From Alphaproteobacteria bacterium (GTDB taxonomy: Bacteria; Pseudomonadota; Alphaproteobacteria; Ferrovibrionales; Ferrovibrionaceae), in NCBI GenBank assembly GCA_017307375.1, contig JAFKFH010000003.1:186001-250000 (forward strand): a stretch of 64,000 nt of DNA, read 5' to 3'. Both the position numbers and the translations under genes were made by a program. Positions 16,722-18,868 of the stretch are shown piece after piece (positions within the stretch are counted from its first letter, which is position 1; each line of letters begins with the position of its first letter). A model generated the notes under the pieces. The model did not search any database. It had not been told where the DNA came from and saw nothing but the letters and a program-made list of their open reading frames with translations.

Positions 16722-17438
16722 ATGAGAATGGCAAAACTCGATGCGGCCCGCGCCGCCGCGGTCAGCCTGCTGATGTTGACGATCGGTTCCAGTGCGGTCG
16801 CCCAGGACAAGCCGGCGACGCCGGCGCCCGCGCCGCAACAGGCCGCCGCCCCGCAGGTCCCGCTGGCCCCGCCGCCGACCTCGGCCGACTGTTCGCTGAC
16901 CGCGTTCGATCAGGCCTGGGCACGCGACGCCTTCGCCACCGAACAGGCCCCCGACGCCAGCACCCAGGCCGGCGCCGATTTCGCCATCTATGTCAGCCGC
17001 TACGAGGCGATCGGCAACGCCCCGTTCGACAAGACCCCGGTCTATTCCGAGGAAAGCCAGTCGATCGTGCCGCTGGTCGGCGTCGGGCGCGGGATTCGCG
17101 CCGAAGTGCGCCGGATCGAAGGGTCGGACACGCTGTCGGTGGTCACGGGCTTCGCCTATGCGACGCGGATGCAGGGCAACGAGGCGATCGAGGTCACCGT
17201 GCGCGCGGTCGAACTGGCCGGCGTCGAGCGCCAGCAGAAGCCGGATGGCACGTCGGTGATCCGCCCGCTGTGCCGGGCGACGGTCGCCACCGGGCTGGTG
17301 CCGGTGAACTGGAAGTCGAAGTCGCTGACCCGCCAGGAACGTTTCGCCCAGTCGGCCCTGCCCTTCGCGGTCGCGCCCGACAAGCGCGAGCGGGTCGACA
17401 TCGCGGTGGCCGCGAACCTGCTGAAGAAGCCGAACTGA
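16722..17438 (+). CDS. Secreted protein of unknown function
   Basis: A 238-residue protein with a signal peptide (residues 1-26, ending SSAVAQ), a proline- and alanine-rich linker (27-52), then a domain with two conserved-looking cysteines (SADCSLTAF and RPLCRATV). No catalytic motif is visible. ATG 16722 follows GAGAGAGG; an in-frame ATG at 16728 is equally plausible. The 269-base gap upstream holds only GC-rich inverted repeats and no clear promoter. The protein probably resides in the periplasm; its relation to the thiolase and small RNA next door is unknown. Confidence 0.72.
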   Translation: MRMAKLDAARAAAVSLLMLTIGSSAVAQDKPATPAPAPQQAAAPQVPLAPPPTSADCSLTAFDQAWARDAFATEQAPDASTQAGADFAIYVSRYEAIGNAPFDKTPVYSEESQSIVPLVGVGRGIRAEVRRIEGSDTLSVVTGFAYATRMQGNEAIEVTVRAVELAGVERQQKPDGTSVIRPLCRATVATGLVPVNWKSKSLTRQERFAQSALPFAVAPDKRERVDIAVAANLLKKPN

Positions 17439-17463: not shown

Positions 17464-17489
17464 GCCGGGCCTGTCCGACCAGGCCCGGC
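17464..17489 (+). terminator. Strong hairpin after the secreted-protein gene
   Basis: Perfect 10-base arms GCCGGGCCTG (17464-17473) and CAGGCCCGGC (17480-17489) with loop TCCGAC start 25 bases after the stop at 17438. No T run follows on the plus strand, so it is at best a weak or Rho-assisted terminator. Confidence 0.4.
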
Positions 17490-17498
17490 CGGCAGCGC

Positions 17499-17529
17499 AA
17501 AAAAAAGGCTGCACGGAGAACCGGCAGCC
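17499..17529 (-). terminator. Factor-independent terminator of the small RNA
   Basis: On the minus strand GGCTGC and GCAGCC (17529-17524 and 17512-17507) pair around an inner CGG-TTCT-CCG stem, followed at once by eight T (17506-17499). This is a textbook intrinsic terminator for the small RNA. It would also stop readthrough from the thiolase, whose stop is at 17672. Confidence 0.88.
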
Positions 17530-17580
17530 CAAGTCTTAGGGAGGAAACGCCCAGGAAGGGCGAACGACGCCGAAGCGTCG
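17499..17580 (-). ncRNA. MmgR (alpha-r8)-like small RNA candidate
   Basis: A predicted transcript of about 82 nt on the minus strand. From 5' to 3' it has hairpin CGACGC-UUCG-GCGUCG; hairpin CGCCC-UUCCU-GGGCG; an unpaired stretch containing UUUCCUCCCU (its complement is at 17538-17547); and a GC hairpin ending in eight U. An anti-Shine-Dalgarno CCUCC in an open region is characteristic of Hfq-dependent alphaproteobacterial sRNAs. UUUCCUCCCU is, as I recall, the most conserved segment of Sinorhizobium MmgR, which limits polyhydroxybutyrate storage. A sigma70 promoter with a palindromic operator is placed exactly upstream. The start is predicted from the -10 position; family membership is an inference not checked against a covariance model. 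Confidence 0.78.
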
Positions 17581-17586
17581 AAACCA

Positions 17587-17615
17587 TATTTATGCTGCAG
17601 TGCAGCAAGTGTCAA
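17587..17615 (-). promoter_or_regulatory. Sigma70 promoter of the small RNA
   Basis: On the minus strand a consensus TTGACA (plus 17615-17610) is followed by a 17-base spacer and TAAATA (17592-17587). Transcription should start near 17580. The spacing and sequence make this one of the best promoters in the window. The thiolase stop at 17672 lies 57 bases upstream of the -35 element. Confidence 0.85.
17593..17607. promoter_or_regulatory. PhaR-like operator in the promoter spacer
   Basis: The perfect palindrome TGCTGCAGTGCAGCA (7-base arms, one central base) fills the spacer between -35 and -10. It contains CTGC-N3-GCAG, the motif I recall for PhaR (AniA), the alphaproteobacterial polyhydroxybutyrate regulator. 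Binding here would block RNA polymerase, so the small RNA would be repressed when PhaR is free of polymer. The identity of the binding protein is inferred. Confidence 0.65.
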
Positions 17616-17671: not shown

Positions 17672-18868
17672 TCAGCCGGCCGGGCGCTCGATCGCGATCG
17701 CCGTCGCCTCGCCGCCGCCGATGCACAGGGCGGCCACGCCGCGGTGCACACCGCGCGCCTGCAGCGCATGCAGCAAGGTCACGATCAGCCGCGCCCCGGT
17801 CGCCCCGATCGGATGGCCCAGCGCGGTGGCGCCGCCATTGACGTTGACCTGCTCGGCCCCGAGGCCGAGATCGCGGATCGCGGCCATGGCGACGACGGCG
17901 AAGGCTTCGTTGATCTCGTAGAGATCGACCGAACCGGTCTGCCAGCCGACCCGGTCGAGCAGCTTGCGGATCGCCGGAATCGGCGCGGTGGTGAACCAGG
18001 CGGGGTCCTGCGAATGGGTCGCATGGCCACGGATCTCGGCCAGCACCGGCAGGCCGAGCGCGTCGGCCTGCGACCGCCGGGCCAGGACCAGCGCCGCCGC
18101 CCCGTCGGCATTGGCCGAGGAACTGGCCGCGGTGATCGTGCCGTCGGCGCGGAAAGCGGGTTTCAGCGACGGAATCCGGTCGGGCGAAACCTTCATCGGG
18201 TTCTCGTCCTGCGCCACCGTGATCGCCGCGCCGCCCTTGGCCGGGATCGCGACCGGCGCGATCTCGGCGGCGAACGCCCCGCCTTCGACCGCGGCGCGCG
18301 CCCGGGTCAGCGAACGGATCGCATAGGCATCCTGCTCGGCCCGGGTGAACTGGTAGGCCTGGGCGGTCGCCTCGCCGAAATCGCCCATCGGCCGGCCGCC
18401 TTCATAGGCGTCCTCCAGCCCGTCGAGCATCATGTGGTCGAGAATCCGGTCATGGCCGACCCGATAGCCGCCGCGCGCCTTGGCCAGCAGATAGGGCGCG
18501 TTCGACATGCTCTCCATGCCGCCGGAAACCACGATGCCGGCCGAACCGGCCAGGATCAGGTCGTGGGCCAGCATCGTCGCCTTCATGCCCGAGCCGCAGA
18601 CCTTGTTGACCGTGGTGGCGCCGGTGGCATCGGGCAGCCCGGCCCCGCGCGCGGCCTGACGCGCCGGGGCCTGGCCCTGCCCGGCCGGCAGCACGCAGCC
18701 CATCAGCACCTCGTCGATGCGCTGGCGGTCGAGCCCGGCGCGGTCGACTGCCGCGCCGATCACATGGGCGCCGAGGACCGGCGCCGGCAGCGGCGCCAGC
18801 GCGCCCTGGAAGCGGCCGAGCGGGCTGCGCACGGCCGAGACGATGACGACGGGGTCGTGGGCGGACAT
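17672..18868 (-). CDS. phaA: Acetyl-CoA acetyltransferase (thiolase)
   Basis: A 398-residue biosynthetic-type thiolase that joins two acetyl-CoA to acetoacetyl-CoA, the first step of polyhydroxybutyrate and ketone-body metabolism. The nucleophilic cysteine is in VNKVCGSGMKA (Cys91); NEAF, GHPIGATGAR near 350 and CIGGGEA near 382 supply the other catalytic residues. The N-terminal VVIVSAVRSPLGRFQGAL matches the family. A GAGGAG ribosome site precedes the ATG. No phaB lies adjacent, so a role in fatty-acid or ketone catabolism (atoB) is equally possible; the nearby PhaR-like site favours the storage polymer. Confidence 0.88.
   Translation of the reverse strand: MSAHDPVVIVSAVRSPLGRFQGALAPLPAPVLGAHVIGAAVDRAGLDRQRIDEVLMGCVLPAGQGQAPARQAARGAGLPDATGATTVNKVCGSGMKATMLAHDLILAGSAGIVVSGGMESMSNAPYLLAKARGGYRVGHDRILDHMMLDGLEDAYEGGRPMGDFGEATAQAYQFTRAEQDAYAIRSLTRARAAVEGGAFAAEIAPVAIPAKGGAAITVAQDENPMKVSPDRIPSLKPAFRADGTITAASSSANADGAAALVLARRSQADALGLPVLAEIRGHATHSQDPAWFTTAPIPAIRKLLDRVGWQTGSVDLYEINEAFAVVAMAAIRDLGLGAEQVNVNGGATALGHPIGATGARLIVTLLHALQARGVHRGVAALCIGGGEATAIAIERPAG

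Follow-up and report, generated by a model that had tools for sequence, protein, structure and literature searches.

The minus-strand segment 17580-17499 of the analyzed DNA (a stretch of 64,000 nucleotides, here called the window) is, as judged by covariance model, sequence and predicted fold, a genuine alpha-r8/MmgR small RNA gene. Its promoter carries a PhaR-type operator between the -35 and -10 boxes, and a survey of the promoters of its relatives suggests, at the level of sequence, that this arrangement is common to most of the Alphaproteobacteria. The window element in itself is an ordinary MmgR gene with a known kind of switch. A preliminary description of this DNA had presented the extension of the family outside the Rhizobiales and the upstream switch as new. 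Both claims were anticipated because alpha-r8 RNAs are already known in all Alphaproteobacteria except Rickettsiales (PMC12559287) and because AniA/PhaR binds and represses mmgR in S. meliloti (PMC12542648 and PMC8401924). What the promoter comparison suggests as new is evidence for the wide spread of the PhaR-type operator on alpha-r8 promoters; class-wide conservation or the start-site register may already be contained in the primary MmgR papers of 2016-2018.

Identity and fold of the small RNA

Analysis of the window by cmscan revealed RF00519 (suhB, "Makes More Granules Regulator," mmgR) as the sole family above its own cut-off (62.2 bits; cut-off, 41). The alignment spans positions 17568-17492 and covers the model in full length (1-77). 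This result confirmed the alpha-r8/MmgR identity for which the preliminary description had proposed a covariance-model search. SorY (RF02651) was rejected as an assignment at 24.6 bits against a cut-off of 111, and a match to M23, far below its cut-off, was rejected as well. SorY and SorX (RF02784) of Rhodobacter share with the window RNA a CU-rich unpaired core and a terminator, a likeness that is weak overall.

The RNA gene has a length of about 82 nt. Starting from the 5' end, the fold comprises a hairpin, CGACGC-TTCG-GCGTCG (17580-17565), a second hairpin, CGCCC-TTCCT-GGGCG (17562-17548), which is also supported by the RF00519 alignment, an unpaired anti-Shine-Dalgarno decamer, TTTCCTCCCT (17547-17538), and an intrinsic terminator (17530-17499) with a GC stem at about 17530-17507 followed by eight T residues at 17506-17499. 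The minimum free energy (MFE) is -36.8 kcal/mol, which corresponds to z = -5.2 against dinucleotide shuffles. The decamer, downstream of the second hairpin, is unpaired in both the MFE and the centroid folds, is invariant across the alignment of relatives, and is identical to the alpha-r8 10-mer of PMC12559287. The 5' hairpin is a lineage feature; it is common to the window copy and to a second copy in the same genome (L001), and altered versions occur in L041, L048, and L064. Sequence and fold thus bear out the two GC hairpins, the open decamer, and the eight-T terminator described before. The unit earlier given as 120 bases long extends, with its promoter, over 17615-17499.

A strong GC inverted repeat, GCCGGGCCTG/CAGGCCCGGC, is positioned at 17464-17489, between the T-run of the RNA and the convergent gene, and is possibly the terminator of the latter.

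Promoter anatomy and the PhaR-type operator

Direct reading of the minus strand upstream of the RNA revealed a -35 box, TTGACA (17615-17610), a spacer of 17 nt (17609-17593), and a -10 box, TAAATA (17592-17587), the last also aligned with relatives. The spacer is filled by the PhaR-type sequence TGCTGCACTGCAGCA (17607-17593), a perfect palindrome with 7-nt arms and a 1-nt center that abuts the -10 box. The promoter with its palindrome-filled spacer is therefore as first described. A generic scan for promoters and terminators flagged neither the promoter nor the terminator of the RNA in the window; the promoter was missed because TAAATA breaks the rule of T at position 6 used by the scan, and the interrupted stem of the terminator was not listed by it.

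For scoring, a 15-column PhaR matrix was built from the S. meliloti sites classified as "Efficient" in electrophoretic mobility shift assays (EMSA) (Table 3, PMC12542648), with mmgR left out. On this matrix, the window operator inside the promoter spacer reaches 20.8 bits, and the S. meliloti mmgR promoter, withheld from the matrix, reaches 17.9 bits. In S. meliloti, AniA (PhaR) represses mmgR by way of a dyad located between the -35 and -10 boxes (PMC8401924). Purified PhaR shifts this promoter, and mutations of the palindrome abolish the shift (PMC12542648). Like the S. meliloti phasin and PHB depolymerase operators and the Rhodobacter sphaeroides site CTGCNNNGCAG, the window operator has a palindromic YGCRNYGCR core and overlies promoter elements (PMC12542648); unlike them, its target is a small RNA, as for S. 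meliloti mmgR.

The short motif CTGCNNNGCAG occurs three times in the window against 2.5 occurrences expected and is not significant alone, which would leave room for the palindrome as a chance feature. The 15-mer TGCTGCNNNGCAGCA, however, was found once in the window against 0.01 expected, a palindrome of this type is found again in the paralogue, and the family survey shows many-fold enrichment of such sites, so that coincidence has practically no claim as an explanation. The 7.54-Mb genome contains eight perfect TGCTGCNNNGCAGCA sites, and two of the eight are its two alpha-r8 promoters. The perfect sites at L027, L028, and L034 revealed no clear link to PHB genes upon inspection of the neighboring frames. 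At L027:1495-1525 (G000:C5:465319), a long perfect intergenic inverted repeat, TTCGTTCATGCTGC-GGT-GCAGCATGAACGAA, encloses a PhaR-like core and may serve either as an operator or as a terminator.

Genomic neighborhood

The gene upstream of the RNA on the same strand (17672-18868, minus strand) encodes an acetyl-CoA acetyltransferase (thiolase) that matches Pfam Thiolase_N/C and NCBIfam TIGR01930. It scored 335 bits with the PhaA model, for which the cut-off is 740, and it is a generic acetyl-CoA acetyltransferase. The convergent neighbor (16722-17438, plus strand) is known as a reading frame for a 238-amino-acid protein with no match in Pfam or NCBIfam. The preliminary description had given meaning to the position of the RNA beside a thiolase gene. 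No thiolase gene was found beside any other fetched alpha-r8 locus, the paralogue included, so thiolase was rejected as a conserved partner; together with the low PhaA score, this leaves the adjacency without weight. The gene for N-formylglutamate amidohydrolase (FGase), a common but not defining neighbor of alpha-r8, does not adjoin the window RNA and does adjoin alpha-r8 in the class relative L106.

Some alphaproteobacterial small RNAs, e.g., SorX, derive from 3' UTRs. Since the window RNA is located downstream of the thiolase gene on the same strand, it might likewise be mainly a processed 3' UTR piece of the thiolase message. This origin is very unlikely, because strong -35 and -10 boxes with a 17-nt spacer are positioned between the thiolase stop codon and the RNA and because the paralogue keeps its promoter without a thiolase neighbor.

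The second alpha-r8 copy and the putative PhaR regulon of the same genome

Searching the rest of the genome revealed one further alpha-r8 copy over the cut-off, L001 on contig C30 (67.5 bits with RF00519). The RNA is almost identical to that of the window, and the DNA 5' of the -35 box and 3' of the terminator has diverged. The L001 promoter reads TTGACT-N17-TAATTT and carries TGCTGCGTCGCAGCA at the equivalent position in the spacer. Both six-base arms of the window operator are kept in this site, the three central bases differ, and the score is 14.6 bits.

The genome encodes a single phaR gene (PF07879, 109.5 bits), which itself has a weak PhaR-type site of 6.3 bits. Two of its three phasin genes have two upstream PhaR-type sites each (L005:1045-1130 and L006:1935-2030), with scores of 17.6-20.9 bits. 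Paired PhaR sites are also found upstream of each of phaP1 and phaP2 of S. meliloti (PMC12542648). The score of 20.8 bits and the motif shared with the phasin promoters of the same genome support the PhaR-type operator of the preliminary description.

Comparison with MmgR of S. meliloti revealed the RF00519 match, the decamer UUUCCUCCCU, the terminator, and a dedicated promoter whose -35 and -10 boxes flank a PhaR palindrome as common features. In contrast to the single S. meliloti copy, the window genome has two copies over the cut-off; the window RNA has an additional strong 5' hairpin that the Rfam match does not include, its operator is a perfect TGCTGC-N3-GCAGCA, and its genomic neighborhood is different.

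Distribution of the operator among alpha-r8 promoters

The survey covered 130 alpha-r8 copies, which come from 102 genomes in 59 alphaproteobacterial families. A site of at least 10 bits upstream of alpha-r8 was called an operator; this threshold was chosen after inspection of the sequences, and the matrix itself derives from published, independent sites. The promoter count excludes five alpha-r8 hits that lacked a recognizable CCTCC core or lay on short contigs. An operator was present in 92 of the 130 copies, 71 of the 102 genomes, and 43 of the 59 families, counts that are not independent because the sequences are related. Matrices with permuted palindromic columns yielded a mean of 0.9 and a maximum of 8 calls per 130 copies. 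In the first-pass set (n = 109), 72% of the promoters had a site, compared to 5% of the flanks and 4% of the dinucleotide shuffles.

The operators fall into two main registers, with few elsewhere. By a rough count based on a simple consensus score and confined to assignable promoters, 21 operators are located in the spacer (as in the window, L001, and L048) and 31 over the -10 box or the start site (e.g., L036-L046), with modal centers at -20 and -1 as counted from the estimated start. Whichever the register, the operator directly adjoins the -10 box on one of its two sides.

The matrix scan detected no PhaR site at L014 or L015, the named Caulobacter loci, and the best scores at Phenylobacterium loci were below 7 bits. 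This result agrees with the published lack of a common upstream motif in sisA-D, the sibling promoters of which are unrelated (PMC12559287). SisA-D of Caulobacter crescentus resemble the window RNA in family, 10-mer, and the presence of several siblings per genome (PMC12559287); they differ in that L014 and L015 have no PhaR site, whereas both copies of the window genome have the operator.

Several further arrangements were observed. Within genus g4 of the same family, the start-site operator is accompanied by a second PhaR-like site over the -35 region (L036-L046; e.g., TTGCGCTGCACAC in L036), and 31 of the 92 operator-bearing alpha-r8 promoters contain two strict sites. Tandem triple alpha-r8 genes, each with its own PhaR-type site, were found at L049/L066 (G050:C7:54432-55030) and at L129 (G161). 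The named contigs with the core are alphaproteobacterial or unspecified proteobacterial, with one exception labeled Oceanobacillus. This contig, L020 (WNWL01000004.1, recorded as Oceanobacillus sp. HTM 045), harbors an alpha-r8 gene of typical alphaproteobacterial type with a promoter resembling those of Limibaculum/Thermohalobaculum (L008 and L013) and is probably a mislabeled or contaminated record. The window genome was assigned to the Alphaproteobacteria on the basis of these labels; a second family of its order is missing from both the relatives and the class samples, so that a placement in the Rhizobiales would be surprising.

Co-occurrence of the operator with phaR

Among 192 genomes of the class, phaR is present in 81 of the 87 genomes with alpha-r8 and in 35 of the 105 others (p about 1e-18), which is partly an effect of genome size because small genomes lack both genes. 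More telling is that the operator tracks phaR: it was detected in 57 of 80 phaR-positive alpha-r8 genomes and in one of six without phaR (p = 0.013). The link is not universal, since 26 alpha-r8 genomes that are phaR positive or untyped for phaR have no site and since G197, a genome that is 91% complete, has the operator with no phaR found.

These data bear on whether the palindrome of a true alpha-r8 RNA might be occupied by another regulator, with control by something other than PHB status. PhaR binding at the window palindrome is a prediction, the Caulobacter siblings have unrelated promoters (PMC12559287), and NtrC likewise controls S. meliloti mmgR, as given in PMC8401924. Against this stand the fit of the motif to a matrix built from PhaR gel-shift sites alone, its presence at two phasin promoters of the window genome, the agreement of its position with that of the proven S. 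meliloti site, and its absence from most genomes that lack phaR. We consider another regulator improbable.

Proposed regulation and targets

The reading that we prefer, and regard as quite probable, starts from what was observed, namely the RNA family, the layout of the promoter, an operator retained in the paralogue and in many families, and a phaR gene together with PhaR-type phasin promoters: an alpha-r8 RNA with its own promoter would be repressed by PhaR until PHB titrates the repressor, and would then damp storage messages. The steps of PhaR binding and repression, PHB titration, and decamer pairing are modeled on S. meliloti and Caulobacter. Transcription would start near 17580 from a sigma-70-type promoter of the RNA and would stop at 17499, and the product would be a trans-acting, probably Hfq-dependent RNA. 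PhaR on the spacer palindrome would exclude RNA polymerase. In S. meliloti, the formation of PHB granules titrates PhaR (PMC12542648); if growing granules likewise drew PhaR off the DNA here, phasins and both alpha-r8 copies would therefore rise together. The alpha-r8 10-mer base-pairs with targets in the case of Caulobacter SisA (PMC12559287), and the decamer of the window RNA may correspondingly cover the Shine-Dalgarno sequences of target messages and cap their translation. The whole circuit would then act as an incoherent feed-forward brake on storage.

Prediction of RNA pairing yielded -27.9 and -19.1 kcal/mol for the two phasin messages, whereas random ATG windows have their 5th percentile at -22.4, and the duplex energy draws partly on bases locked in hairpin 2. 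The predicted pairing is thus suggestive for one of the two phasin messages only. The value for the thiolase message (-17.6) is not notable. Feedback of the RNA on the phaR mRNA was considered and rejected: the duplex in the window genome was first calculated at -28.4 and amounted to -22.3 with another start and small RNA segment, and the energies in 20 relatives lay between -9.7 and -27.9, without conservation of the site.

The uneven strength of the phasin pairing would also fit an RNA that, like Caulobacter SisA, serves mainly in the general control of nutrients or transport and for which PhaR is one input among others. Among the targets validated for SisA are a TonB-dependent receptor and further genes outside PHB metabolism (PMC12559287), and the anti-Shine-Dalgarno decamer could reach many messages. 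On the other hand, the presence of the PhaR-type operator in most families links expression of the RNA to polymer status, and loss of MmgR in S. meliloti raises phasins and PHB, according to PMC8401924. Such a broader role is possible, though we lean against it.

For the class as a whole, it appears evenly balanced whether PhaR control of alpha-r8 is an old trait (not of the Caulobacteraceae and some others), exerted in two registers abutting the -10 box and extending to a SorX-type RNA, through which polymer status would set a post-transcriptional layer. If PhaR controls alpha-r8 in most families, stored PHB would feed directly into an RNA regulator that is widely conserved and whose physiological signal has so far been obscure outside S. 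meliloti. The two-register operator and the operator-less lineages offer ready test cases in genetically tractable species.

SorX-like RNAs with PhaR-type sites

A third alpha-r8 candidate of the window genome, L003 (31.4 bits with RF00519), was rejected in favor of SorX, with which it scores better (43.5 bits against a cut-off of 46.6). Genuine PhaR-type sites at such loci would bring a second anti-Shine-Dalgarno RNA under the control of PhaR. Among 23 SorX-like hits in the window genome and its relatives (families f1, f2, and f17), 13 have a PhaR-type site of at least 14 bits, located 65-111 nt upstream of the core, and seven of these 13 belong to one genus with an identical 15-mer. The SorX-like RNA of the window genome (L003:1450-1577; G000:C3:597125-597195) has the PhaR-type palindrome TGTTGCGTTGCAACA directly upstream, and the same was observed at L185-L199.
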